DNA of 64,000 nucleotides, taken from the NCBI RefSeq assembly GCF_030655195.1, contig NZ_JAURWA010000030.1, forward strand, positions 1 to 64,000, in the 5' to 3' direction. Both the position numbers and the translations under genes were made by a program. Positions 48,244-64,000 of the stretch are shown here, piece by piece. The DNA comes from Patulibacter sp. Lineage in GTDB: Bacteria; Actinomycetota; Thermoleophilia; Solirubrobacterales; Solirubrobacteraceae. A model generated the notes under the pieces. The model saw only the letters and a program-made list of their open reading frames with translations. It ran no database searches and was not told the DNA's origin. The first letter of the stretch is position 1. Every line of letters begins with the position of its first letter.

Positions 48244-49437
48244 ATGGAACCCGTCCGACCACCGCTCGGCCCGCTCCCCGGGTCGACGGCGTCCGAGGTG
48301 ATCGACTCGACGCTGCTGCTGATCCCCGACGCGGCGGTGTGGCTCGACGAGGACGACCGGGTGCGGGCGGCCAACGCCCGGGCCCGCGAGATGTTCCGCG
48401 GCGACGTCGTCGGTCGCGCGCTCACGGCGCTCGTGACCGCGGCGGACGGAGCGGACCTCGGCCGTGGGGTCGGGGTCCGCTGCGACGGGATCCCGTTCGC
48501 CGTCGAGACGAGCGTCGGACGCGCGCCGGGCGGGACGCTCTGCACGTTCCGCGAGCCCCCGGCCGCGGCGGTCCCGCAGCTGGCGCAGCGGCACTTCGTC
48601 GCGGCGTTCGAGACCGCGCCGATCGGCATGGCCCTCTTCAACCCCGACGGCGAGTACATCCGGGTCAACGGGGCGCTCGCGACGATGCTCGGCCGCGACG
48701 CCGCCGCCCTGCTCGGCCGGCGCGACCAGGAGTTCACGCACCCCGACGACCGGCGGAGCGACGTCGTGGCGGCCTGGTCGATCCTCCGCGGCGAGCGCAG
48801 CACGCACCAGTGCGAGAAGCGGTTCGTCCGTCCCGACGGCACGGTCGTCTGGGCCATCGCCAACCTGGCGTTCCTCCGCGACGAGCTCGGTCGGCCGATC
48901 AGCTGGATCGGCCAGTTCCAGGACATCACGGCCCGCAGGCGCACGGAGGAGGGCCTGCAGCGGATGGCCGACCACGACCCGCTCACGGGCCTGCTCAACC
49001 GCCGGGCGTTCGACCGCGAGCTGCACCGGCTGCTCGGCGACGAGCACGGCCCCGGCGGCGGGCTGCTCGTCCTGGACCTCGACGGGTTCAAGGCGGTCAA
49101 CGACGCCCACGGTCACCGCGCCGGGGACGACGCGCTCGTGCGCTGCGCGGACGGCCTGCGCGGCGCGACGCGCGCGGGCGACCTGGTCGCCCGGCTGGGC
49201 GGCGACGAGTTCGCGATCTTCGCCCCGGCGCTGGGCGCCGGCCTGCCGGGCCTGGTCGCCCGCATCCACGACGCCGTCGACGCCGCGGCGGAGGCCACCG
49301 CCCTGGGCGTCTCGGTCGGCGTCGCCACCACGGACGACGTCGGGCGCCGCCCCGACGCCCTGATGGCCGCCGCCGACGCCCGGATGTACGAGGCGAAGGC
49401 GGGCGCGCGCAGCGGGCGGGCGGGCGCGGGGCGCTGA
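48244..49437 (+). CDS. Diguanylate cyclase with two PAS domains
   Basis: A 397-residue signalling enzyme that makes cyclic di-GMP from GTP. The N-terminal 115 residues look like a degenerate PAS domain (LIPDAAVWLDEDDRVRAANARAREMF). A second, canonical PAS/PAC pair follows (FETAPIGMALFNPDGEYIRVNGALATMLG to WIGQFQDITARRRTEEGLQRM). The GGDEF domain begins DHDPLTGLLNRRAF and carries an intact active site RLGGDEF near 318, with LDLDGFKAVNDAHGHRAGDDAL before it. No EAL domain or membrane segment is present, so it is a soluble sensor. I see no RxxD inhibitory site at the usual place. ATG 48244 lacks a strong ribosome binding site. Confidence 0.93.
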   Translation: MEPVRPPLGPLPGSTASEVIDSTLLLIPDAAVWLDEDDRVRAANARAREMFRGDVVGRALTALVTAADGADLGRGVGVRCDGIPFAVETSVGRAPGGTLCTFREPPAAAVPQLAQRHFVAAFETAPIGMALFNPDGEYIRVNGALATMLGRDAAALLGRRDQEFTHPDDRRSDVVAAWSILRGERSTHQCEKRFVRPDGTVVWAIANLAFLRDELGRPISWIGQFQDITARRRTEEGLQRMADHDPLTGLLNRRAFDRELHRLLGDEHGPGGGLLVLDLDGFKAVNDAHGHRAGDDALVRCADGLRGATRAGDLVARLGGDEFAIFAPALGAGLPGLVARIHDAVDAAAEATALGVSVGVATTDDVGRRPDALMAAADARMYEAKAGARSGRAGAGR

Positions 49438-49494: not shown

Positions 49495-50259
49495 TCAGGC
49501 CCCGACGAGCGCCGAGGGCCGCGGCCGTGCGGCACCGAACGGGATCCGCCGCACCACGGGGAGCCCCACGTCGCGCGGGTCCAGGGCGTCCGGCTCGGGG
49601 TCCGAGCACACGAGCAGGCGGGCGGGACGCAGGCCGATCGCGGCGATCGAGGCGGCGAGCACCTCCAGCGCGGGGGAGGCCTCGGGGACCCCCAGCGGGC
49701 GTCGTCCGACGCGGCCGCGCGGCCGAGGTCCGGGTGGCCGGGGGGCGTGCGTCCCGGGGTCGGGGCGCGTCGGCGCGGGCCCCGCGGCAGCGAGCATCGG
49801 ATCGCGTTCGTCGCGGTGGAGGACGAGGAGGCCCGCGCCGTCCTCGCGCAGGCGGCGGAACGCACGCACGAGATCGTCGTCGCGCGTTCCCGGCCTCCCG
49901 TCCTCGCCGGACGGGCGCAGGCGGTGCAGCCGCACGAGCGGGGCGATCGAGGCGAGCGGATCGCCGACCAGCGCGAGCAGGCTGGTCGCCCCGAGGTGCA
50001 CGTCCGGCACGGCGATCAACCGCACGTCGCCGAGGCCGAGGTGCTCGAGCGGCCCGAGCGGGTGGCCGGGCGGGAGCGGGTCGGGTGCGGGGCGCGCGAG
50101 CGGCCCGGGAGGTGCGACGACGGCCGCGCCGCCGTGCCCTGCGGTCCCGGACCGCGTCCCCGTCGCACGGGTCCCGGACCCGGTGGTCCGGGTCGCCGCC
50201 GCGGACCCGGTGACCGCGGCGCGCTCCGCCGCACCCGTCCCGGCGAGCGTCGTGCTCAT
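49495..50259 (-). CDS. GTP cyclohydrolase II (RibA)-like protein lacking the zinc cysteines
   Basis: A 254-residue protein, Pro-Arg-rich at the N-terminus. Residues about 70-245 follow the order of RibA: GDVRLIAVPD (start strand), PLVRLHRLRPSGED (in RibA LARVHSECLTGD), TRDDDLVRAFRRLREDGAGLLVLHRDERD (RibA [20 protein letters not shown], then LLYHRQEGRN), and AASIAAIGLRPARLLVCSDP...VGLPVVRRIPFG (RibA MFKLLGVNEVRLLTNNP...AGINIVERVPL). The three zinc Cys of the enzyme are replaced (HSEC becomes HRLR; RCDC becomes TRDD), so GTP ring opening is unlikely. A Pro-rich insert separates the halves. It overlaps the LysR gene (ATGA) and is divergent from a flavin monooxygenase cluster; a flavin- or nucleotide-binding role is inferred. 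Confidence 0.6.
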   Translation of the reverse strand: MSTTLAGTGAAERAAVTGSAAATRTTGSGTRATGTRSGTAGHGGAAVVAPPGPLARPAPDPLPPGHPLGPLEHLGLGDVRLIAVPDVHLGATSLLALVGDPLASIAPLVRLHRLRPSGEDGRPGTRDDDLVRAFRRLREDGAGLLVLHRDERDPMLAAAGPAPTRPDPGTHAPRPPGPRPRGRVGRRPLGVPEASPALEVLAASIAAIGLRPARLLVCSDPEPDALDPRDVGLPVVRRIPFGAARPRPSALVGA

Positions 50260-51200
50260 CGGGCCACCGCGACGGCGGCGGCGACCGGGGGCACCGTCGC
50301 CTCGACGTAGGTCGCCGCGTGCTCGACCAGCAGGCGGTGCAGGTCGCCCGTGGCCGTGGCGGCCTCGGCCGAGCGGCGGCGGACGAGCATCAGGAGGACC
50401 TCGGCGTCGTCGCCCTCGATCGGGCGGTGGACGAGGACGCCCGAGCGCTCCAGCGGGTCGCCGACGACGCTGAACGTCGGCAGGACGGTGACGCCCAGGC
50501 CCTCGGCGACGAGCAGCTTGCCCATCTCGGCACCGTCGGTCGCGTAGGACACGACGGGGGTACGGCCGGCGAGCAGCCGGTGGACGTAGCGGTGCATCAC
50601 GTACCCCGAGCGCATCGCGATCAGGGGCTGGGTCAGGAGATCGTCGACGGTGACCCTGGGCAGCGCCGCGAGCGGGTTGTCGGCACGCATGCAGACCACC
50701 GGTGCCGCCCGCAGGATCTCGGTGCTCTCGAGCTCGGGGGAGGGATCGTCGCCGTCGAGGAGGTTGACCAGGCCGAGGTCGAAGGACCCGTCGAGCAGGG
50801 ACCGGTGGATCGCGTCGCCCTGCGCGGTGATGACCTCCACCTGCGTCTGCGGGTGCTCGGTGCGGAACGCCCGGATCGCCGGGGTGACGAGCGGGACGGT
50901 CGCCGCGTTGACGGTGCCCAGGCGGACGACGCGGCTCGAGCGGTGCTGGTCGTCGGCGGCGCGACGCAGGCGGTCGGCGGCCTCGAGCACGCGCAGGATG
51001 TCGGGGAGGAGCTCGCGGCCGGCGTCGCTGATCGTGGTGCCCGACCGGCGCCGCTCGAGGATGTCCACGCCGAGCTCCCGCTCCAGGTTGCGGATCGTGA
51101 CGCTGAGCGCGGGCTGCGAGATGTGTAGCTCCTCCGCAGCGGCGCGGAACGAGCCCAGGCGGGTCACGGCGGTGACGTATTCGAGCTGTTCGATGCGCAT
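50256..51200 (-). CDS. LysR-family transcriptional regulator
   Basis: A 314-residue activator/repressor. Residues 1-60 are a winged HTH (MRIEQLEYVTAVTRLGSFRAAAEELHISQPALSVTIRNLERELG). Residues 95-295 are the two-lobed periplasmic-binding-like effector domain (VRLGTVNAATVPLVTPAIRAF, then FDLGLVNLLDG, and YVMHRYVHRLLAGRTPVV). It starts at ATG 51200 and its stop overlaps the RibA-like gene. It faces the ABC importer gene across a 142-bp AT-richer gap that contains a palindrome of LysR-box type, so it most likely regulates the importer and monooxygenases and its own operon. Confidence 0.9.
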   Translation of the reverse strand: MRIEQLEYVTAVTRLGSFRAAAEELHISQPALSVTIRNLERELGVDILERRRSGTTISDAGRELLPDILRVLEAADRLRRAADDQHRSSRVVRLGTVNAATVPLVTPAIRAFRTEHPQTQVEVITAQGDAIHRSLLDGSFDLGLVNLLDGDDPSPELESTEILRAAPVVCMRADNPLAALPRVTVDDLLTQPLIAMRSGYVMHRYVHRLLAGRTPVVSYATDGAEMGKLLVAEGLGVTVLPTFSVVGDPLERSGVLVHRPIEGDDAEVLLMLVRRRSAEAATATGDLHRLLVEHAATYVEATVPPVAAAVAVAR

Positions 51201-51342: not shown

Positions 51343-53031
51343 ATGCCCTCACCACTCAGCCCGACCGCCTCAGCGCCGCTGACCGCCCGCCTCGCCGCGG
51401 CGGCCGCCGCCCTGATCACCGCCCTCGTGCTGACCGCCTGCGGCGGCTCCGGCTCGACGACCAACGCGTCGGCGACCGACGACGCGGCGGCGAAGCCCAC
51501 CCGCGGCGGCACCATCGAGTACGCCCACCAGCAGGAGCCCCCGTGCATCTCGGGCGGCTGGGTCGAGCAGGCCTACATCTCGCGTCAGGTCTTCGACTCG
51601 CTCGTCTCCCAGGTCGGGAAGGGCAGGATCGTCCCCTGGATCGCGACGAAGTGGAAGGTCTCCAAGGACCAGCTGACCTGGACGTTCGACCTCAAGCCGG
51701 GCGTGAAGTTCTCCGACGGCGACGCCCTGGACGCCGAGGCGGTCAAGGCGAACTTCGACTACTGGCTGGACCCGAAGACGATCAACGGCACGGTCGCCGC
51801 CTACATCGGCGAGTACTACGACTCCAGCCGGGCCGTCGACGCGACGACCTTCCAGCTCAAGCTGAAGAAGCCGTACTCGCCGCTGCTCTCCGCGCTCTCG
51901 CAGGGCTACTTCGGCCTGCACTCGCCGTCGTCGCTGAAGCAGCCGGCCGACGTCCAGTGCGTCAAGCCCGTCGGCTCCGGCCCCTTCGTGATCGAGAAGT
52001 GGAACCGCGGCCAGAACGTCGAGTTCGTCCGCAACCCGACGTACAACTCCGCCCCGCAGAACGCCAAGAACCAGGGCCCGGCGTACGTCGACCGCCTGAA
52101 CTGGAAGTTCGTCAAGGAGCCCGCCACGCGCTGGGGCTCGCTGACGACCGGGCAGAACCAGGTCATCTACGACATCCCGTCCGTGGACTGGCAGGAGGCG
52201 AAGGCCGAGTACCAGGTCGAGAAGTACACGACCCCCGGCCGGCCGCAGACGCTGTCCCTGAACGTCACCAAGGCGCCGTTCGACGACATCCGCGTGCGGA
52301 AGGCCCTGGCCTACGCGCTGGACCGCAAGGCGGCGGTGGAGAACGCGTTCGGCGAGGCCGCCGACTTCAACGGCAACCCCGCCCTGTCGAAGTCGACGCC
52401 GAACTACGACGCGTCGCTCGAGAACGCCTACACGTACGACCCGGACAAGGCGAACGCGCTGCTCGACCAGGCCGGCTGGAGCACGAAGAACGCCGACGGC
52501 ATCCGGACGAAGGGCGGCAGGCCGCTGAAGGCCGTCATCGACTACGGCGCCGGCTCGATCATCAACGCCGACGGCGCGACGCTGCTGCAGACGCTGCAGG
52601 AGCAGGCCAAGCAGGTCGGCTTCGAGATCGAGCTCAAGCCGCTGACGCTGACGCAGCTCTTCGGCGGCCAGTTCTCCACGCCGACGAGCTACGACGCCCG
52701 GCCCGGCTACTGGACGAGCCCGACCGCCGGCGTCCTCTACATCGTCTGGCGCCAGAACCTGAAGGACCGTCCGAACGGCAACAACACGTCCTTCTACAAC
52801 GATCCGGGCCTCGAGCGGACGATCGGCGAGGCGAACTCGACGCTCGACCCGCAGGAGCAGCAGGCGCTCTACTCCAAGGCGCAGAAGCGGATCTCCGACC
52901 AGGCCGCGGCGATCGGGCTCTACACCCGCACCTCGTCGCTGGCGATCGACCGGTCCAAGCTCCGCGACGTGTGGCTGGAGAGCTCGCAGGGCGAGCCCGT
53001 GTTCTCGGACGCCTGGCTCGTGAAGCCGTGA
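51343..53031 (+). CDS. ABC transporter substrate-binding lipoprotein, family 5 (peptide/nickel type)
   Basis: A 562-residue extracytoplasmic receptor for an ABC importer. The signal peptide ends in the lipobox LTAC with Cys33. The SBP_bac_5 core is clear: KWKVSKDQLTWTFDLKPGVKFSDGDALDAEAVKANFDYWLDP near 105-147, the hinge VGSGPFVIEKWNRGQNVEFVRNPTY, and IRVRKALAYALDRKAAVENAFG. Ligands of this family are oligopeptides, nickel chelates, opines, or small sulfur and aromatic compounds. The neighbours (monooxygenases of the NtaA/DszA type) suggest the last. It opens a run of overlapping genes and is controlled by the divergent LysR. Confidence 0.93.
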   Translation: MPSPLSPTASAPLTARLAAAAAALITALVLTACGGSGSTTNASATDDAAAKPTRGGTIEYAHQQEPPCISGGWVEQAYISRQVFDSLVSQVGKGRIVPWIATKWKVSKDQLTWTFDLKPGVKFSDGDALDAEAVKANFDYWLDPKTINGTVAAYIGEYYDSSRAVDATTFQLKLKKPYSPLLSALSQGYFGLHSPSSLKQPADVQCVKPVGSGPFVIEKWNRGQNVEFVRNPTYNSAPQNAKNQGPAYVDRLNWKFVKEPATRWGSLTTGQNQVIYDIPSVDWQEAKAEYQVEKYTTPGRPQTLSLNVTKAPFDDIRVRKALAYALDRKAAVENAFGEAADFNGNPALSKSTPNYDASLENAYTYDPDKANALLDQAGWSTKNADGIRTKGGRPLKAVIDYGAGSIINADGATLLQTLQEQAKQVGFEIELKPLTLTQLFGGQFSTPTSYDARPGYWTSPTAGVLYIVWRQNLKDRPNGNNTSFYNDPGLERTIGEANSTLDPQEQQALYSKAQKRISDQAAAIGLYTRTSSLAIDRSKLRDVWLESSQGEPVFSDAWLVKP

Positions 53032-54035
53032 GCACCGCGGTCCTCGACGACCGGCCGGCCCCGCCGGACGCGCAGCTCCTGCGCGCCCGGCTGCGCCGGC
53101 CGGCGAGGGTCGCCGTCCGCATCCTCAGCGCGCTCGGCGTGCTGTGGGCGGCCGCGACCTTCACCTTCTTCGTGCAGTCCGTCCTGCCCGGCGACCGCGC
53201 CACGCTGATCATCAACCAGGACACCGGTCAGACGATCGAGCGCAGCGCCGCCGAGCTGGCCCCGATCAACGAGCGCTTCGGCTTCGACGACTCGCTGGTC
53301 ACCCAGTACGGCCACTACCTGACCGGCTTGGTGCAGGGCGACCTGGGCACGTCCTACCGGCTCAAGCAGCCCGTCACGACGATCATCTCCGAGCAGATCG
53401 GGCCGACGCTGCTCCTGACGTTCTCGGCGCTGGCGCTCGCCTGGATCATCTCGATCGCCCTGACGGTCGCGACCGCTCGCCGCGGCCGGATCGCCTCGTC
53501 GGTCGCGTCGGGCTTCGAGGTCGTCACCGCCGCGCTCCCGCACTACTGGCTCGGCGTGATCCTGCTCGTGGTCTTCGCGATCGACCTGCAGTGGTTCCCC
53601 GTCGAGGGCGGCACCGGGTTCGTGGGGCTGGTCCTGCCGGCGCTGACCCTGGCGATCCCGCTGGCCGGGTTCCTCGGCCAGGTGACGCGCGAGCAGTTCG
53701 AGCGGACGCTCGACGAGCCGTTCGTGACCTCCGCCCGGGCGCGCGGCATGAGCGACCTGGGCGTGCGCGTCAAGCACGCCCTGCGCCACGCCGTCCTGCC
53801 CGCCATCACCCTGTCGGGCTGGGCGCTCGGCGCGCTCTTCTCCGGGGCGGTCGTGGTGGAGCTCGTCTTCGCCCGGGCCGGCCTCGGGCAGGTGCTGGTC
53901 GACGCGGCCAGCGCGCGGGACATCCCCCTCGTCTCCGGCGTCGTGATGCTCGTCGCGCTCGTCTACGTCATCGCCAACCTGATCGTCGACGCGCTCTACG
54001 TGGTCGTCGACCCGCGGCTGGGGAAGGCCGCATGA
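53028..54035 (+). CDS. ABC transporter permease, DppB/NikB type
   Basis: A 335-residue inner-membrane subunit with about six helices. The first is LSALGVLWAAATFTFFVQSVLPGD. The family signatures are the QYGHYLTGLVQGDLGTSYRLKQPV loop, and the EAA-type cytoplasmic loop ARGMSDLGVRVKHALRHAVLPAITLSG that couples to the ATPase. The GTG start overlaps the binding-protein stop (GTGA) and the stop overlaps the next permease (ATGA). With the DppC-like partner it forms the channel of the importer. Confidence 0.93.
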   Translation: MSTAVLDDRPAPPDAQLLRARLRRPARVAVRILSALGVLWAAATFTFFVQSVLPGDRATLIINQDTGQTIERSAAELAPINERFGFDDSLVTQYGHYLTGLVQGDLGTSYRLKQPVTTIISEQIGPTLLLTFSALALAWIISIALTVATARRGRIASSVASGFEVVTAALPHYWLGVILLVVFAIDLQWFPVEGGTGFVGLVLPALTLAIPLAGFLGQVTREQFERTLDEPFVTSARARGMSDLGVRVKHALRHAVLPAITLSGWALGALFSGAVVVELVFARAGLGQVLVDAASARDIPLVSGVVMLVALVYVIANLIVDALYVVVDPRLGKAA

Positions 54036-54919
54036 GCACCGCGACCCCCACCTTCTCCGGCGGCGCCCCGACCCCCGGCGCCGTCGCGAGCGCCGCGTGG
54101 TCCCGCGTCCGGACCTGGCGTCCCGGGCTCGTCCTGGCCGGCCTCGTGCTGCTGTTCTTCGTCGTCGCCGCGGCCGTCCCGTCGCTCCTGGCGTCGGGCT
54201 CCCCGACCGACATCGACCTGCGCGGCGCGCTGCGGGCCCCGTCCCTGGAGCACCTGCTGGGCACGGACCAGAACGGGCGCGACCTCTACACGCGCGTCGT
54301 CTACGGCGCCCGGGAGTCCCTGCTGATCGGCCTGGGCGCCACCGCGCTCTCGACGTCGATCGCCGTGGTCCTCGGCGTCAGCGCCGGGCTGGCCGGCGGC
54401 ATCGCCGACGCGATCATCAACCGCTTCCTCGAGGTCCTCTTCTCGTTCCCCGTGCTGCTCCTGGCGCTGCTCTTCGTGACCGTCTTCGGCGCGAGCGCGA
54501 CGACCCAGATCGTCGCCGTCGGGATCGGCACCGCGCCCGGCTACGCCCGCCTGATCCGCGGGCAGGTCATCGCGGTCCGCGACTCGGGCTACGTCGAGGC
54601 GGCCGGGGCGCTCGGGCACTCCTACGCCCGGATCGTCCGGCGCCACGTCCTGCCCAACGCGATGCGGCCGCTGGTCGTCGTCGTGACCCTCGGCGTCGGC
54701 CAGGCGATCGTGTGGGCCTCCGGCCTCGCATTCCTCGGGCTCGGCGTCGCCCCGCCGTCGCCGGAGTGGGGCGCCCTGCTCGACGCCGGCAAGAACTACG
54801 TGCAGAAGGCCTGGTGGCTCGAGGTGATGCCGGGGCTCGCGATCGTCGCGTTCGCGCTCTCCGTCACCACGCTCGGCCGCGCGCTGCAGGCACGCCTCGA
54901 AGGAGGGACGGAGCGATGA
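54032..54919 (+). CDS. ABC transporter permease, DppC/NikC type
   Basis: A 295-residue inner-membrane partner of the preceding permease. The family N-terminus has LVLAGLVLLFFVVAAAVPSLLASG, then HLLGTDQNGRDLYTRVVYGARESLLIGLGATALSTSIAVVLG, the DppC hallmark. The EAA loop is EAAGALGHSYARIVRRHVLPNAMRPLVV. The order and lengths are normal. It starts at ATG 54032 (overlap ATGA) and ends overlapping the ATPase start, so subunits are made in sequence. Confidence 0.93.
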   Translation: MSTATPTFSGGAPTPGAVASAAWSRVRTWRPGLVLAGLVLLFFVVAAAVPSLLASGSPTDIDLRGALRAPSLEHLLGTDQNGRDLYTRVVYGARESLLIGLGATALSTSIAVVLGVSAGLAGGIADAIINRFLEVLFSFPVLLLALLFVTVFGASATTQIVAVGIGTAPGYARLIRGQVIAVRDSGYVEAAGALGHSYARIVRRHVLPNAMRPLVVVVTLGVGQAIVWASGLAFLGLGVAPPSPEWGALLDAGKNYVQKAWWLEVMPGLAIVAFALSVTTLGRALQARLEGGTER

Positions 54920-56643
54920 GCACCACCACCCGGCGGTCCGCACCCGTGTGGCCCACGGAGGCCCCCGCCGACCTCGACCGCACGCTGCTGCGGGTGGAGG
55001 ACCTGCACGTCGGCTTCGGCGACGCGCGGGATCCGACGCCCGTCGTCAAGGGCGTGTCGTTCACCCTGGAGCGCGGGCGCTGCCTGGCGATCGTCGGCGA
55101 GTCCGGGTCCGGCAAGTCCGTCACGGCGCGCACGATCGTCGGGCTGACGGGCGGCCGCTCGCACGTCCGGGCGGGTCGCCTGGAGCTCGCCGGCCGCGAC
55201 CTGCGTGGCCTCGGCGACCGCGGCTTCCGGGCGATCCGCGGCCAGGACGTCGGCTTCATCCTGCAGGACGCCCTGGTCTCGCTCGACCCGCTGCGGCCCG
55301 TCGGACGGGAGATCGCGGAGGCGCTGAGGCTGCACGGCTGGGGGACCCGCACGTCCCGCCACGAGAAGGTCGTCGAGCTGCTGACCCAGGTCGGCGTCCC
55401 CGACGCGGAGCTCGTGGCGTCGCAGCGGCCCGACGAGCTGTCGGGCGGGCTGCGCCAGCGCGCGCTGATCGCCTCGGCGCTCGCCCTGGACCCCGAGCTC
55501 GTCATCGCCGACGAGCCGACCACCGCGCTGGACGTCACCGTGCAGGCCCAGATCCTCGAGCTGCTCGAGGCCACGAAGGCGCGGGGCAGGACGCTGATCC
55601 TGATCAGCCACGACCTGGCCGTCGTCTCGCGCATGGCGGACGACATCGCCGTCATGCAGGGCGGGGAGATCGTCGAGCAGGGCGACGCCCGCGAGGTCCT
55701 CGCGAACCCCCGTCACGCCTACACGCGGGCGCTGCTGGACGCCGTCCCGTCGGAGCACTCCCGTGGCCAGCGGCTGTCGCCGGGGCGGGACGCGGCGGTC
55801 TCGGTGATCGGGTCGGCGCGCGCCGCCGCTCCCGACGCGACCGTCCCGGTCCTCGAGGCCACCGACCTGGTCAAGCGCTACCGCGGGCCCGACGGGATCG
55901 AGCGCACCGTCGTCGACGGCGTGTCGTTCCGGCTCGAACGTGGGAAGACGCTCGGGGTGGTCGGCGAGTCCGGCTCCGGCAAGACCACCACGGCGCGCAT
56001 CGCGTTGGCCCTGACGCGGCCCGACGGCGGCGAGGTGCTGTTGGACGGGGAGCCCTGGAGCGGCCTCAAGGAGAAGGAGCGCCGCGCCCGTCGCCGGCAG
56101 GTCAGCGTGATCTACCAGGACCCGCTGTCGTCGTTCGACCCGCGCTGGTCGGTCGAGCGGATCCTGCGCGACACGCTGGCCCCGGAGGCCTTCGCCGACG
56201 ACGCCGCCCGCGGGCGCCGCGTGGGCGAGCTGCTGGAGCTCGTCGGCCTGCAGGACGAGCACCGCCACCGTCGGCCGCTGCAGCTCTCGGGCGGCCAGCG
56301 GCAGCGGGTGGCGATCGCCCGGGCGCTGGGCCCGGACCCGGCCGTGATCGTCTGCGACGAGCCCGTCTCGGCGCTCGACGTGTCGATCCAGGCGCAGGTG
56401 CTCGACCTGCTGGAGGACCTGCAGCGCGAGCTCGGCGTGAGCTACCTGTTCATCTCGCACGACCTCGGCGTGATCCACCACATCAGCGACCACGTGCTCG
56501 TCCTGAGCAAGGGGAGGGTCGTCGAGCAGGGCCCCGCCGACGACGTCTTCCGGCGCCCGCAGGAGCCCTACACCCAGGCCCTGCTCGCGGCGGTCCCGCG
56601 GTTGCAGCGGCCCGGCTCCCGCACCGCGGCCGCCGCCGACTGA
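54916..56643 (+). CDS. Fused double ABC ATPase, DppD-DppF type
   Basis: A 575-residue cytoplasmic protein with two complete nucleotide-binding domains, normally two separate subunits. Domain 1 has Walker A GESGSGKS near 61, the signature LSGGLRQR near 175 and Walker B LVIADEP. Domain 2 has Walker A GESGSGKT near 351, signature LSGGQRQR near 458, and VIVCDEP. The linker between them (about 285-315, Ala-rich) is short. The second half carries EPYTQALLAAVP, the usual C-terminal oligopeptide-ABC motif. It starts at ATG 54916. A hairpin at 56648-56676 follows before the monooxygenases. Confidence 0.94.
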   Translation: MSTTTRRSAPVWPTEAPADLDRTLLRVEDLHVGFGDARDPTPVVKGVSFTLERGRCLAIVGESGSGKSVTARTIVGLTGGRSHVRAGRLELAGRDLRGLGDRGFRAIRGQDVGFILQDALVSLDPLRPVGREIAEALRLHGWGTRTSRHEKVVELLTQVGVPDAELVASQRPDELSGGLRQRALIASALALDPELVIADEPTTALDVTVQAQILELLEATKARGRTLILISHDLAVVSRMADDIAVMQGGEIVEQGDAREVLANPRHAYTRALLDAVPSEHSRGQRLSPGRDAAVSVIGSARAAAPDATVPVLEATDLVKRYRGPDGIERTVVDGVSFRLERGKTLGVVGESGSGKTTTARIALALTRPDGGEVLLDGEPWSGLKEKERRARRRQVSVIYQDPLSSFDPRWSVERILRDTLAPEAFADDAARGRRVGELLELVGLQDEHRHRRPLQLSGGQRQRVAIARALGPDPAVIVCDEPVSALDVSIQAQVLDLLEDLQRELGVSYLFISHDLGVIHHISDHVLVLSKGRVVEQGPADDVFRRPQEPYTQALLAAVPRLQRPGSRTAAAAD

Positions 56644-56706: not shown

Positions 56707-58119
56707 ATGACCACCGAGCAGCGCCCCCTCCACTTCGCCGCGTTCGTGATGAACACGGCCTCCCACATCACCCACGGCCTCTGGCGCGACCCCCGGGGGG
56801 AGCAGCTGCGGTTCAACGAGCTGGACCTCTGGGTCGACCTGGCGAAGACCCTGGAGGCCGGCGGGTTCGACGCGATCTTCTTCGCCGACGTCGTCGGCCT
56901 CTACGGCGACTACCGCGGCGGCTGGGACTTCCACGCCGAGCTGGGCCTGCAGATCCCGAGCAACGACCCGCTCGTGATCCTCTCCGCGCTGGCGTCGCAC
57001 ACGAAGCACCTGGGCCTGGCGTTCACCGCCGGGCCGATCCAGCAGCCGCCGTTCAACTTCGCCCGTCAGGTCGCGACGCTGGACCACGCGTCGAACGGGC
57101 GGATCGCCTGGAACGTCGTCTCCAACCTGCTGGGCTGGAGGAACTTCGGCCACGAGGAGCGCTACGGCCACGACGACCGCTACGCCCTGCTCGACGAGTA
57201 CCTCGACGTCCTCTACAAGCTGTGGGAGGGCTCGTGGGATGACGGAGCGCTCCTGCAGGACCGCACGTCCGGGCGCCACGCGGACCCGTCGAGGATCCAC
57301 AAGATCCACCACGAGTCGAAGCACTACCGCGTCGAGGGCCCCGCCCTGGTGGCGCCCTCGCCGCAGCGCACGCCGCTGATCTTCCAGGCCGGCTCCTCCC
57401 CCGTCGGGCGCGACTTCGCCGCCCGCCACGCCGAGGCGCAGTTCATCGCCTCGCCCGACCCCGACAACGCGCGGACGCTGATCGACGACACCCGCCGGCT
57501 GGCGGAGCAGCACGGCCGTCACCGGGACGACCTGAAGTTCTTCCAGGGCCTCTCGTTCGTCGTCGGGTCGAACGAGGCGGAGGCCCGCGAGCGGGAGCAG
57601 GAGCTCGAGGAGCGGGTCGACATCGACGGCCAGATCGCCCACTTCGGCGGCAGCGTCGGCATCGACCTGGGCGGCTACGACCCCGACACCCCGATCGACC
57701 AGGTCCACACGGAGGGCGGCCAGTCCGGCCTGACGTGGCTGCGCGAGAGCACCGGCGGTCGCACCCCGACGCTCGAGGACATCGTCCGACTGCGGGCCCG
57801 CGGCGGCCGCGTCGTCGGTACCCCGGAGCAGATCGCCGACCGCCTGGCGGCGTGGCGCGACGCCGGGGTCGACGGGATCAACGTCGTCAACGCCACGATC
57901 CCGGGCTCCTACGTCGAGTTCATCGACCACGTCCTCCCGGTGCTGCGCGAGCGGGGCCTGGCGGCGGCGACCCCCGACCCGGACGCGCCGGCGCAGACCC
58001 TCCGCGCGCGGCTCTTCGGCGGCGACCTCTTGAGCGACCGGCACCCGGCGGCGATCTACCGCGGGGCGTTCTCGTCCGCCTCCGACGCGCCGGCGCCCGC
58101 GCCGATCGCGGCCGACTGA
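56707..58119 (+). CDS. FMN-dependent monooxygenase, NtaA/SnaA/DszA family, copy 1
   Basis: A 470-residue luciferase-like enzyme that should use FMNH2 supplied by a partner reductase to oxygenate a small substrate. The family shows FAAFVMNTASHITHGLWR at the start, then GGFDAIFFADVVGLYG, SNDPLVILSALASHTKHLGLAFT, PPFNFARQVATLDHASNGRIAWNVVSN and LWEGSWDDGALLQDRTSGRHADPSRIHKIHH, all hallmarks of NtaA/DszA. Compared with copy 2 a short loop after WNVVSN is remodelled (LLGWRNFGHEERYGHDDRY instead of ALENGARNFGLDGLTEHDERY), which lies near the substrate site. GGAG five bases before ATG 56707 is the ribosome site. The substrate (alkylated sulfone, aminopolycarboxylate or other) is not determined. Confidence 0.93.
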   Translation: MTTEQRPLHFAAFVMNTASHITHGLWRDPRGEQLRFNELDLWVDLAKTLEAGGFDAIFFADVVGLYGDYRGGWDFHAELGLQIPSNDPLVILSALASHTKHLGLAFTAGPIQQPPFNFARQVATLDHASNGRIAWNVVSNLLGWRNFGHEERYGHDDRYALLDEYLDVLYKLWEGSWDDGALLQDRTSGRHADPSRIHKIHHESKHYRVEGPALVAPSPQRTPLIFQAGSSPVGRDFAARHAEAQFIASPDPDNARTLIDDTRRLAEQHGRHRDDLKFFQGLSFVVGSNEAEAREREQELEERVDIDGQIAHFGGSVGIDLGGYDPDTPIDQVHTEGGQSGLTWLRESTGGRTPTLEDIVRLRARGGRVVGTPEQIADRLAAWRDAGVDGINVVNATIPGSYVEFIDHVLPVLRERGLAAATPDPDAPAQTLRARLFGGDLLSDRHPAAIYRGAFSSASDAPAPAPIAAD

Positions 58120-58194: not shown

Positions 58195-59601
58195 ATGCCC
58201 CAGCCCCGCCCCCTCACCTTCGCCGCGTTCGTGATGAACACGGCCTCGCACATCACCCACGGCCTCTGGCGCCAGCCGCACGGCGAGCAGCTCCGCCACA
58301 GCGAGCTCGACCTCTGGGTCGACCTGGCGAAGACCCTCGACCGCGGCGGCTTCGAGGCGATCTTCTTCGCCGACGTCGTCGGCCTCTACGGCGACTTCCG
58401 CGGGGGCTGGGACCACCACGTGGAGCTCGGGCTGCAGATCCCGAGCAACGACCCGCTGGTGATCCTCTCCGCGCTGGCGTCGCACACCGAGCACCTGGGT
58501 CTCGCGTTCACGTCCGCCCCGATCCAGCAGCCGCCGTTCAACTTCGCGCGTCAGGTCGCGACGCTGGACCACGCCTCGGGCGGCCGCATCGCCTGGAACG
58601 TCGTCACCAACGCGCTCGAGAACGGCGCCCGCAACTTCGGCCTCGACGGCCTGACCGAGCACGACGAGCGCTACCGCTGGGCCGACGAGTACCTCGACGT
58701 CCTGTACAAGCTCTGGGAGGGCTCGTGGGACGAGGGCGCCCTGCTGCAGGACCGCGCGTCCGGGCGGCACGCGGACCCGTCGAGGATCCACAAGATCCAC
58801 CACGAGAGCGAGCGCTACCGCGTCGAGGGCCCGTTCCTGGTGGCGCCGTCCCCGCAGCGCACGCCGCTGATCTTCCAGGCCGGCAGCTCGCCCGTCGGTC
58901 GGGCGTTCGCGGCGCGGCACGCCGAGGCCCAGTTCATCCAGAGCCCCGATCCCGACGGCGCCCGGCGGCTGATCGACGACACCCGGCGGCTCGCGCAGGA
59001 GCACGGGCGCCACCCCGACGACCTGCGGTTCTTCCAGGGCCTGTCGTTCGTCGTCGGCTCGACGGAGGAGGAGGCCCGCCGGCGTGCGGAGGAGCTCGAC
59101 GGCCAGATCGACGTGGCCGGCCAGATCGCGCACCTCGGTGGAGGCGTCGGCGCGGACCTCGGCGACCTGTCCCACGACGCGCCGATCGACGAGATCGAGA
59201 CGGAGGGCGTGCGGTCGATCCTCCAGTGGATCGCCGAGGGCGTCCCGCACCGCCGCCCGACCGTCGGTGACATCGCCGTCTTCAACGCACAGCGCAGCCG
59301 CGTCGTGGGCACCCCGGAGCAGATCGCCGACCGCCTCGCCGCCTGGCGCGACGCCGGCGTCGACGGCGTGAACGTCATCAACGCGACGATCCCGGGCTCC
59401 TACGTCGAGTTCGTCGACCACGTCCTGCCGACGCTGCGCACCCGGGGCCTCGCGGCCCCGGCGCCCGAGCCCGGCAGCCCCGCGAAGACCCTGCGCGGCC
59501 GCCTCTTCGGCACCGACCGCCTCAGCGACCGCCACCCGGCCGCGCGCTACCGCGGCGCGTTCACCCCGCAGTCCGCGCCGACCTCGATCGCGGCGGACTG
59601 A
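58195..59601 (+). CDS. FMN-dependent monooxygenase, NtaA/SnaA/DszA family, copy 2
   Basis: A 468-residue paralogue of copy 1, collinear for its whole length with long identical blocks (FAAFVMNTASHITHGLWR, LGLQIPSNDPLVILSALASHT, IFQAGSSPVGR, VVGTPEQIADRLAAWRDAGVDG), so the two arose by tandem duplication. It keeps the standard family loop NALENGARNFGL that copy 1 has changed, and differs again in the late segment between 330 and 400 (GVPHRRPTVGDIAVFNAQRSR). All conserved FMN-site residues appear intact. GAGG precedes ATG 58195. The pair may act on related substrates or form a heteromer. Confidence 0.93.
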   Translation: MPQPRPLTFAAFVMNTASHITHGLWRQPHGEQLRHSELDLWVDLAKTLDRGGFEAIFFADVVGLYGDFRGGWDHHVELGLQIPSNDPLVILSALASHTEHLGLAFTSAPIQQPPFNFARQVATLDHASGGRIAWNVVTNALENGARNFGLDGLTEHDERYRWADEYLDVLYKLWEGSWDEGALLQDRASGRHADPSRIHKIHHESERYRVEGPFLVAPSPQRTPLIFQAGSSPVGRAFAARHAEAQFIQSPDPDGARRLIDDTRRLAQEHGRHPDDLRFFQGLSFVVGSTEEEARRRAEELDGQIDVAGQIAHLGGGVGADLGDLSHDAPIDEIETEGVRSILQWIAEGVPHRRPTVGDIAVFNAQRSRVVGTPEQIADRLAAWRDAGVDGVNVINATIPGSYVEFVDHVLPTLRTRGLAAPAPEPGSPAKTLRGRLFGTDRLSDRHPAARYRGAFTPQSAPTSIAAD

Positions 59602-59605
59602 CCGC

Positions 59606-59666
59606 CGTCCCGAGCACCCCGGCACCGCGGCCGCGAGCCGTGGCGTCCCGAGCACACCGGTACCGC
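59606..59666. repeat. Paired 23-bp direct repeats upstream of monooxygenase copy 3
   Basis: Two copies starting CGTCCCGAGCAC (59606-59628 and 59644-59666) agree at 21 of 23 positions with a 38-bp period. They lie between the stop of copy 2 and the GTG of copy 3. A regulatory role or a slippage duplication are both possible. Confidence 0.5.
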
Positions 59667-59711
59667 AGAAGCGTCCCGTCCCACCCCACCGACACCGAAG
59701 CCGAGCCCCAC

Positions 59712-61163
59712 GTGACCGACCGCCAGACCGACCCGCCCCGCCGCCTGCGCCTGAACGCGTTCACGATGAACGTCGTCTCGCACATCGTGCAGGGGCAGTG
59801 GACCCGCCCCGACACGCGGCAGCGCGACTACACGAGCCTGCAGCCGTGGGTCGAGCTCGCCGGGCTGCTCGAGCGCGGTCGCTTCGACGCCGTCTTCTTC
59901 GCGGACGTCGTCGGCGCCTACGACGTCTTCGAGGGCTCGCGCGACGCGGCGGTGCGCAACGCCGTCCAGTTCCCGGTGAACGACCCCAGCGCACTGATCC
60001 CCGCGATGGCGCTGGTCACCGAGCACCTGGGTCTGGCGTTCACGCTCTCGATCCTGCAGGAGCACCCGTTCAGCTTCGCCCGGCGGGCGACGACGCTCGA
60101 CCACCTGACGGACGGCCGCGTCGGCTGGAACGTCGTCACGTCGTACCTGGAGAACGCCGCGCGCAACCTCGGCTACGGCGGGCTGCCGCTGCACGACACG
60201 CGCTACGACCGCGGCGACGAGTACCTCGACGTCCTCTACAAGCTGTGGGAGGGCTCGTGGGAGGACGACGCCGTGGTCGACGACCGCGAGCGCGGCATGT
60301 ACGCCGATCCCGCGAAGGTCCACGAGATCGGGCACCGCGGCCGGTACTACGACGTCGTCGGCCCGCACCTGTCCGAGCCCTCGCGCCAGCGCACCCCGGT
60401 GCTGTTCCAGGCCGGCTCGTCCGAGCGGGGCCGCGAGTTCGCCGCCCGCCACGCCGAGGCGACGTTCATCGCCGCACGCAACGTCCGTGGCGCGCGGGCC
60501 AACGTCGACGACCTGCACGAACGGCTGTTGCGCAACGGTCGCCGCCCCGAGGACCTGCTCGTCTTCCAGGGCCTCACGGTCATCACCGCCGCGACCGAGG
60601 AGGAGGCGCTGCGCAAGGAGCGCGAGGTGCAGGAGCAGCTGAGCGACGAGGGGACCTTCGCGGTGGTCTCGGGCTGGCTGGGCGCAGACCTCGGCGCGGT
60701 CGACCCGGACGCCCCGGTCGGCGACCTCCGGACGAACGCCCAGGAGGGCATCATCAAGGCCCTGGTGGAGTCCGCACCGGACCACACCTGGCGGTTCAAG
60801 GACCTCGTCAAGTCGATCGCCAACCAGCGGATCGTCGGCACCGCCGAGCGGGTCGCCGACGAGCTGCAGGAGTGGCACGAGGACGGCGGCATCGACGGCG
60901 TGAACCTGACCTACACGACGACACCGGGCTCGTTCCGCGACTTCATCGACGGCGTCGTCCCGGTCCTGCAGGAGCGCGGGATCGTGCAGCGCGAATACCG
61001 TGAGGGCACGTTCCGGGAGAAGCTCTTCGACGGCCGCGTCGGCCCGCGACTGCCGGACCGCCACCCGGCGGCGCAGTACCGGCGGGGCGTGGGCGCGACG
61101 GTGCCCGTCAGGCGTGGGCCGCAGGCAGACCGCGAAGTGCAGGCGGCCGGGGCGGCCGACTGA
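59712..61163 (+). CDS. FMN-dependent monooxygenase, NtaA/SnaA/DszA family, copy 3
   Basis: A 483-residue, more distant member of the same family. It keeps FDAVFFADVVGAYDVF, FSFARRATTLDHLTDGRVGWNVVTSYLENAARNLG, LWEGSWEDDAVVDDRERGMYADPAKVHEIGHRG and VLFQAGSSERGREFAARHAE, which is nearer the NtaA/DszA consensus than copies 1 and 2. The C-terminal 40 residues are Arg-rich and extra. GTG 59712 is chosen because the homologous N-terminus (LRLNAFTMNVVSH) is then at a normal distance; the upstream frame from 59640 runs through the direct repeats. No flavin reductase gene accompanies the three enzymes. Confidence 0.92.
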   Translation: MTDRQTDPPRRLRLNAFTMNVVSHIVQGQWTRPDTRQRDYTSLQPWVELAGLLERGRFDAVFFADVVGAYDVFEGSRDAAVRNAVQFPVNDPSALIPAMALVTEHLGLAFTLSILQEHPFSFARRATTLDHLTDGRVGWNVVTSYLENAARNLGYGGLPLHDTRYDRGDEYLDVLYKLWEGSWEDDAVVDDRERGMYADPAKVHEIGHRGRYYDVVGPHLSEPSRQRTPVLFQAGSSERGREFAARHAEATFIAARNVRGARANVDDLHERLLRNGRRPEDLLVFQGLTVITAATEEEALRKEREVQEQLSDEGTFAVVSGWLGADLGAVDPDAPVGDLRTNAQEGIIKALVESAPDHTWRFKDLVKSIANQRIVGTAERVADELQEWHEDGGIDGVNLTYTTTPGSFRDFIDGVVPVLQERGIVQREYREGTFREKLFDGRVGPRLPDRHPAAQYRRGVGATVPVRRGPQADREVQAAGAAD

Positions 61164-62935: not shown

Positions 62936-63219
62936 GGCTGGTTCGGTCTTCCGGTCGGTCGTCGCGAGGGATCCCCGCCCACCCGCATCCGGGACGCGAC
63001 GCGGTGCGCATCACCCGGTGGGGACGGAAACCGGATCGACATTCCCTACGGTCACGGTAGACCAGCCGGACGTGCTCCCCGTCCTCAACGGGGATCCCGT
63101 CCGCCGCCGTGCCGGCCGCGCCGATCCGGACACCGGGCCACCCACCGGGCGGCCCGCCGGCCCGCCCGCCGCGCCCTTCGCCACCGCCCCGCTCAGACCC
63201 CCTCGCCCCGATCGCCGCC
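62936..63219. promoter_or_regulatory. 284-bp divergent region between two flavoenzyme genes
   Basis: No gene is seen. A possible plus-strand promoter is TCGACA (63036-63041)-N16-TAGACC (63058-63063). The segment between contains CTAC-N7-GTAG (63046-63060), an operator-like inverted repeat that overlaps the -10. Divergent arrangement suggests joint control of both flavoenzymes. Confidence 0.35.
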
Positions 63220-64000
63220 ATGCCGACCCGCCCGCTCCTCCTCGCCGCGTCGCTCGCCGACCGCCGCGCGACCCCCGACCACGCCGCCCTGACGGCCCGC
63301 GCGCTCGTCGCGGAGCGCGCCGGGCTCGACCTCGTCGTCCTCGAGGCCGAACCGCTCGACCCGCTGCTCGTCGCCGCCCGGCTGGCGGCGCAGACCGCGA
63401 GCATCGGCATCGTGCCGGTCACGTCGGCGACGACCACGGAGCCGTTCCACGTGTCGACCGCGCTGGCGACCGTCGACGTCGTCGCCCGGGGTCGGGCCGG
63501 CTGGGTGCTCGAGGTCGACGCGGCGGACGACGTGCGCGGCACCGTCACGTGGGAGGTCCCGGGCGACGTTCCCGGTGACGCGGCCGAGCACCTCGAGGCG
63601 GTCCGCGCGCTGTGGGACTCCTGGGAGGAGGGCGCCGTGATCCGCGACACCGCGACCGACCGGTTCCTCGACCGCGACAAGGTCCACCACGTCGACTTCG
63701 AGGGCCGGCACCTCGCGGTGCGCGGCCCGTCGATCACCCCGCGCCCGCCGCAGGGCCATCCGCCGGTGCTCGTCCGCGTGACCGACGAGGCGACCTTCGA
63801 GCTGGCCCGGGCCCACGGCGATGCGCTGTTGACGACGGACCCCCACCTCGCCCGGGGCGGCGGCGAGGCGACCGACCGCCGCGACGGGGAGGCCGCCACC
63901 GGGCGCGACCCGGATGACGCCGCCGCCCCCGCCGGCGGCCCGGGCACCTTCGCCGGTCCCGTCCGTCTCCTCGAGGTCGACGTCGACCCGGCGGACCTCG
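63220..64000 (+). CDS. Partial LLM/NtaA-like monooxygenase, cut by window end
   Basis: An open frame from ATG 63220 runs without a stop to the window edge (260 codons). The N-terminus (LLLAASLADRRATPDHAALTARALVAERAGLDLVVLEAEPLDPLLVAARLAAQTASIGIVPVTSATTTEPFHVSTALATVDVVARGRAGWVLEV) is a much diverged LLM barrel. A later block ALWDSWEEGAVIRDTATDRFLDRDKVHHVDFEGRHLAVRGPSITPRPPQGHPPVLVRV is the NtaA/SnaA family signature. The canonical WNVV and FFADVV motifs are weak or replaced (GWVLEV). It is either a divergent enzyme or a decaying copy; the rest of the gene lies outside the window. Confidence 0.7.
   Translation, partial: MPTRPLLLAASLADRRATPDHAALTARALVAERAGLDLVVLEAEPLDPLLVAARLAAQTASIGIVPVTSATTTEPFHVSTALATVDVVARGRAGWVLEVDAADDVRGTVTWEVPGDVPGDAAEHLEAVRALWDSWEEGAVIRDTATDRFLDRDKVHHVDFEGRHLAVRGPSITPRPPQGHPPVLVRVTDEATFELARAHGDALLTTDPHLARGGGEATDRRDGEAATGRDPDDAAAPAGGPGTFAGPVRLLEVDVDPADL

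Follow-up and report, generated by a model that had tools for sequence, protein, structure and literature searches.

A degenerate RibA-domain protein beside a flavin-monooxygenase cluster of Patulibacter is probably a decayed member of a flavin-reductase-linked pseudo-RibBA module

We find that P0002, a 254-aa protein encoded beside a flavin-monooxygenase cluster of Patulibacter sp., is, as judged by sequence comparison, a descendant of GTP cyclohydrolase II (RibA), and that it should be catalytically dead as that enzyme. We consider it probable that P0002 belongs to a pseudo-RibBA module linked to flavin reductases, of which it would be a solitary and more decayed member, and that it persists as a relic or as a non-catalytic accessory.

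P0002 was delimited from the ORF list and a local profile at 49495..50259 on the minus strand of the window, i.e., the whole 64,000-nucleotide stretch of DNA that was analyzed. A low-complexity N-terminus (aa 1 to ~60) precedes a RibA-like region (aa ~76-240) that holds a Pro/Arg-rich insert (aa ~160-195). The TGA of a LysR-type regulator gene (50256..51200, minus strand; ORF list and Pfam) overlaps the ATG of P0002 as ATGA, and the regulator is divergent from an ABC importer on the plus strand. The importer comprises a substrate-binding protein (SBP_bac_5; 51343..53031; Pfam), permease 1 (53037..54035) and permease 2 (54032..54919), both assigned from position and conserved order without a Pfam scan, and an ATPase with two ABC domains (54916..56643; domain scan). 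Three monooxygenase genes follow on the same strand: LLM1 (56707..58119), an NtaA/DmoA-type FMN-dependent enzyme (TIGR03860, 458 bits against a cut-off of 279.7), and the luciferase-like LLM2 (58195..59601) and LLM3 (59640..61163), both from the domain scan. The start codons of permease 1, the ATPase, and LLM3 are uncertain. The arrangement described by the sequence-only reading, an overlap with a LysR gene and a divergent importer followed by three FMN-dependent monooxygenases, is thereby borne out, with the NtaA/DmoA model run on LLM1 alone of the three. EmoA and EppA, two EDTA-degradation proteins, presumably belong to the NtaA and SBP_bac_5 families, respectively. Further luciferase-like genes, an isochorismatase-domain gene, and a MarR-type gene lie beyond LLM3, and a PAS-GGDEF gene convergent with P0002 ends at 49437.

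To general models P0002 is barely visible as a RibA. The Pfam model GTP_cyclohydro2 (PF00925) matched aa 77-152 with 12.7 bits (E=0.095), under its cut-off of 23.3; an NCBIfam scan gave no match at E<=1, and a phmmer search of the PDB returned no RibA at E<=10, the best of its eight matches (E=0.023) falling on a low-complexity stretch. We therefore give most weight to a local profile of 20 family-level RibA and RibA-like domains from which P0002 was left out. Its members were 20 of the divergent PF00925 matches in a listing over 121 family genomes, minus L022 (a chance PF00925 match on an unrelated frame) and plus the genome's own RibA domain. P0002 scored 32.6 bits with this profile (E=5.5e-9; aligned aa 76-219). 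Once copies of the P0002 frame and known RibA-type ORFs had been set aside, the best other ORF (of 1484 with at least 150 aa) reached 8.0 bits, as did the best of 2000 shuffles. Hence, the resemblance of P0002 to RibA is beyond chance, and we rejected chance similarity as its source. Profiles split by type put P0002 nearest to eight RibA-like domains that have a flavin-reductase or importer link (27.1 bits), ahead of RibBA-type domains that retain most Cys (21.3 bits) and of a mostly Cys-less RibBA set scoring 13.1 bits (the Cys-less L011, L015, L016, and L019, together with L017).

Structure prediction was limited by its input. An AlphaFold2 (AF2) model built from an alignment that contained RibA and RibA-like rows, and so from biased input, had a mean pLDDT of 64.9 and kept the core strands of the RibA fold. 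Its best PDB fold match, biased by the rows supplied, was E. coli GTP cyclohydrolase II (2bz0, E=3.6e-4), followed, with the same bias, by Mtb RibA2 and H. pylori RibA. The single-sequence AF2 model was uninformative (pLDDT 37.9), and we give no weight to its top fold rows, which were AAA-type ATPases.

The active site of P0002 is gone. None of the zinc cysteines remains, the sole Cys being residue 218, so that the sequence-only description of a RibA-like protein devoid of zinc cysteines and carrying a Pro-rich insert proved accurate. In the E. coli enzyme we take these cysteines to be Cys54, 65, and 67, positions that agree with the alignment. The catalytic segment of the genome's own RibA, which in E. 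coli carries the presumed catalytic residues Tyr105 and Arg128 (a numbering that fits the chain), is absent or replaced in P0002. Because both the zinc site and the catalytic segment are missing, P0002 is not expected to act as GTP cyclohydrolase II, and we rejected an active enzyme on these grounds. There was also no match to a DHBP-synthase (RibB) domain in P0002 at E<=1. The RibB fusion that marks RibBX proteins is thus lacking, and we rejected membership of that group.

To place P0002 among its relatives, we turn to the divergent RibA domains of the group nearest to it, of which there are 11 in 146 family genomes (E<=1e-27, with up to 27 candidates scored per genome). A 12th match (G029:C494), a full-length RibA domain with 250.6 bits, was left out of this set. 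Across the phylum, a survey of 396 genomes (nine of the host's family, up to 10 candidates scored per genome) gave a single match above 110 bits, and that was in G025 of the family. Nine of the 11 relatives are fused to a flavin reductase or lie directly behind one. Four of them (L007, L008, L013, and L018) have a PF01613 flavin reductase fused ahead of the RibA-like domain, and in five (L065, L066, L134, L135, and L149) a reductase frame is followed by a same-strand gene with RibB-like and RibA-like halves. When aligned, these five RibB-like halves lack the His of the HTEA motif and keep PGH. The L088 protein, which carries neither a RibB nor a reductase domain, is encoded by the last gene of an importer operon; a same-strand reductase match lies 6.8 kb upstream of it. 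In L048, the contig end cuts off the RibA-like domain.

Loss of the zinc cysteines had been expected to be conserved among homologs, and it is not: 10 of the 11 relatives keep all three, and L018 keeps two. What is missing instead is the catalytic segment, for which none of the 11 has a counterpart to that of the genome's own RibA. We rejected the idea that Cys loss is a derived trait common to the group, since the closest group keeps its cysteines and the Cys-less set scores lowest with P0002 (13.1 bits). Two loci of one genus, L011 and L019, encode RibB fused to a Cys-less RibA-like domain beside distant flavin reductases (28-31% identical); in these the zinc site was probably lost independently. 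As a further observation, the flavin reductase match at L134:10096-10689 crosses two in-frame stops, and the ORF there is not a reductase frame. Given these stops, the copy may be broken or mis-assembled, or the alignment ends may overlap.

The surroundings of these domains are distinctive. In eight mapped related loci, a luciferase-like monooxygenase was found in seven, a PF01613-type flavin reductase in seven, and an importer in four, versus 0/20 for each of the three at the true RibBA loci of the family. Identical tblastn queries were used on all loci, and the control stretches were 4 to 20 kb long. For 7/8 versus 0/20, Fisher's p is 6.8e-6, with the reservation that the loci are related and not independent. 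The misses among the eight are L089, a module at a contig end that has no monooxygenase, and L048, where the contig stops at the RibA-like gene. At a looser threshold L134, L135, and L149 also show monooxygenase and reductase matches, the monooxygenase of L149 only weakly. Fifteen other divergent RibBA paralogs have a reductase in six cases and a monooxygenase in five. The recurrent tie of inactive RibA domains to FMN-monooxygenase loci, anticipated from the sequence alone, is therefore upheld.

The converse is different. A RibA-like domain occurs in 3 of 19 monooxygenase/importer regions (L048, L065, and L066), where the 19 (L048-L066) are the surroundings of LLM3 relatives plus two module contigs, and L065 and L066 were picked for having the domain. 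Since 16 of the 19 show none, the module is no constant part of such clusters. The nearest sister cluster of the P0002 locus, L048, has monooxygenases 81-87% identical and carries a RibA-like gene at the opposite end of the cluster, so that P0002 is at most a putative positional ortholog of it. Separately, we noted LuxR-type regulators, their receiver domain weak or not detected, adjoining three related clusters (L048:5801-6493, L065:8255-8911, and L050:3822-4502).

P0002 itself shares with the modules the closest profile and the monooxygenase/importer context, and has no adjacent or fused flavin reductase: on its contig (C113) no PF01613-type reductase was matched at E<=0.001. Three such reductases are encoded on other contigs of the genome. 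Two of these are 31-38% identical to ten module-type reductases, and the third is 21-26% identical or unmatched, versus 42-79% identity among the ten themselves. The genome also has a full RibBA on another contig (L115, G000 C63), in a 20-kb locus where monooxygenase, reductase, and importer matches are absent, and two further weak PF00925 matches.

Several observations bear on whether P0002 is a working gene. First, P0002 scores 0.03 bits per codon versus 0.58-0.92 in 16 neighbor genes, on which the table was trained. The P0002 frame is the best of the six overall and is not so in the N-terminal 60 aa or in the insert. Scored by synonymous choice alone, P0002 reaches 0.074 versus 0.33-0.53 in the neighbors; its two RibA-like parts score 0.141 and 0.228, the N-terminus and insert are negative, and the adjoining PAS-GGDEF gene scores 0.187. 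Low values also mark the RibA-like genes of three relatives (0.055-0.229 versus 0.18-0.43 for their neighbors), so low codon bias alone is no proof of decay. Second, no homolog of P0002 was found in 60 relatives, in a collection of genome contigs (exact short patterns), or in plasmids. A class-wide search (399 genomes, E<=0.01) hit 13 genomes including its own; the 12 other matches were weak or partial, and their loci gave at most 6.4 bits with the RibA-like profile. By these searches, a single genome encodes P0002. Third, the ATGA overlap and a frame unbroken over both RibA halves indicate some constraint. We take P0002 to be under weak constraint and most likely a relic or near-relic, next a residual accessory, and possibly a sensor acting with LysR. 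The sequence-only suggestions of a sensor, an FMN carrier, or a new enzyme are possible; given that P0002 occurs in isolation and has a weak codon signal, a relic fits at least as well.

We suggest the following course of events. An ancestral module would have consisted of a flavin reductase and a RibA-like domain, in some cases with a RibB-like half, and would have served as a non-catalytic accessory of the reductase by holding it, regulating it, or docking it to the flavin supply. The P0002 cluster would then have lost the reductase together with whatever RibB part there was, and the RibA part would survive as a weakly constrained ORF overlapping the LysR stop, as a near-relic or residual accessory. 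Descent, the missing parts of the active site, and the context of the relatives were observed above; from these we infer the function, the direction of decay, and what activity P0002 may have today. Signs consistent with decay are the weak coding signal, the lack of a P0002 homolog and of a reductase on the contig, and genome reductases whose identity to the module reductases does not exceed 38%. The module near LysR orthologs at L134 and L135 and the RibA-like gene of the sister cluster L048 also speak for this course of events.

Alternatively, P0002 might be a working non-catalytic accessory in trans that pairs, for example, with the true RibBA or with a distant reductase and channels flavin. 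Candidate partners exist in the full RibBA and the three PF01613-type reductases elsewhere in the genome, and in the alignment-based model the RibA fold is predicted to retain its core strands; however, the genome's reductases are distant from the module ones, and an interaction of P0002 with RibBA or a reductase is purely putative. We regard this as rather unlikely.

Still somewhat less likely, in our judgment, is that P0002 is a ligand-sensing partner of LysR: its retained RibA fold would bind a nucleotide or a flavin, and the protein would modulate the regulator co-translated with it. The ATGA overlap and the flavin-monooxygenase surroundings speak for such a role, and RibBX offers a precedent in which an inactive RibA domain is said to regulate its partner (PMC10012899, a partial secondary account). 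The LysR orthologs give a mixed answer. Six other genomes of the 146 encode one (60-66% identity). At two of these loci (L134 and L135) monooxygenases and a reductase/RibB-like/RibA-like set share one stretch, with the RibA-like module beyond the divergent monooxygenases and not behind LysR; L132 has a reductase and no RibA-like gene, and L133, L136, and L064 have neither on the DNA examined, two of these contigs being under 10 kb. The RibA-like gene is directly behind LysR at none of the six loci in other genomes, so that, of the loci examined, this genome's alone shows the adjacency, and the fixed RibA-LysR pair that had been proposed is not supported. At four of the six loci no RibA-like gene is present on the DNA examined, two of the four contigs being under 10 kb. 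At the level of genomes, the picture changes: four of the six LysR-ortholog genomes (G025, G154, G156, and G160) each have a module from the set of 11, versus 11 of 145 genomes overall (p 2.6e-4), with three of the four belonging to one genus. Placement, whose randomness had been named beforehand as grounds for refutation, is thus non-random in a loose sense only, at the level of genomes; adjacency to LysR is not repeated. This genome-level co-occurrence and the 3/19 count for regions pull in opposite directions. The weak coding signal and the Pro/Arg-rich insert, which interrupts the RibA domain, further argue against a sensor.

A combined version is less probable again. Here, a family-specific module of reductase and inactive RibA (in some cases RibB) would serve FMN-monooxygenase clusters, and in this genome the RibA part would have become a free-standing, zinc-free sensor or adaptor co-translated with LysR. 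Lastly, that P0002 is a spurious ORF, its frame open merely through 73% G+C, is very improbable: its codon statistics are far under those of the neighbor genes and the N-terminal 60 aa and insert look non-coding, but a profile match far above decoys and shuffles, in one frame over both RibA halves, contradicts this for the RibA-like part, and its start overlaps the LysR stop.

Returning to decay from a reductase-linked module, we compared P0002 with known systems. Earlier reports describe inactive versions of the first enzymes of riboflavin synthesis in scattered systems, namely RibBX and plant RIBA2. We take MelJ of Mycobacterium marinum to correspond to mycobacterial RibA1. In RibBX, RibB is fused to an inactive RibA-like X domain, which a partial secondary account describes as regulating RibB in Shewanella by an unknown mechanism (PMC10012899). 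The Acinetobacter RibBX structure (6mnz), to which a profile of the relatives (A1) matched with E=1e-7, resembles P0002 in having a RibA-derived domain that lacks zinc and catalytic residues. P0002 differs in having no RibB part and in overlapping a LysR gene, and its relatives differ in keeping Cys, lacking the catalytic segment, and being accompanied by a flavin reductase. Arabidopsis RIBA2 is likewise a RIBA paralog without the residues needed for zinc binding, but it is a bipartite plant protein whose other half is of RibB type, and the portion of its description available to us mentions no link to a reductase or monooxygenase (PMC3509567).

Our search of the open literature found no paper on a pseudo-RibBA/flavin-reductase module in the host's family, and one clear lead, mel2 of M. 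marinum. According to the available part of the mel2 report, MelF is a luciferase-like monooxygenase, MelJ resembles LuxH, and a map legend covering lux and mel2 jointly lists flavin-reductase, DHBP-synthase, and GTP-cyclohydrolase-II domains (PMC1793995). In these points mel2 resembles the family modules; unlike in the P0002 cluster, no importer is mentioned in that part of the report (PMC1793995). In an excerpted study, mycobacterial RibA1 was unable to replace RibA2 (PMC11302143). EDTA degradation combines an FMNH2-dependent monooxygenase, an NADH:FMN oxidoreductase, and an ABC importer (EmoA, EmoB, and EppA); in contrast to the P0002 cluster, the available portion of that source mentions no RibA-like gene for the EDTA/NTA genes (PMC7312458), and the window has no adjacent PF01613-type reductase. 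The repeated occurrence of inactive RibA domains fused to or behind reductases in monooxygenase loci gives a concrete context in which to ask how two-component monooxygenases obtain their reduced flavin. Within this set P0002 is the least preserved member seen, and so serves as a starting point more than as the subject of choice.

At the far end of the window, 63109-64000 (continuing as L024:3110-4252) encodes a divergent luciferase-like protein that matches profile positions 13-221 of 314 only, with 65 bits. This partial protein is followed by a full-length luciferase-like one, and the two genes overlap.
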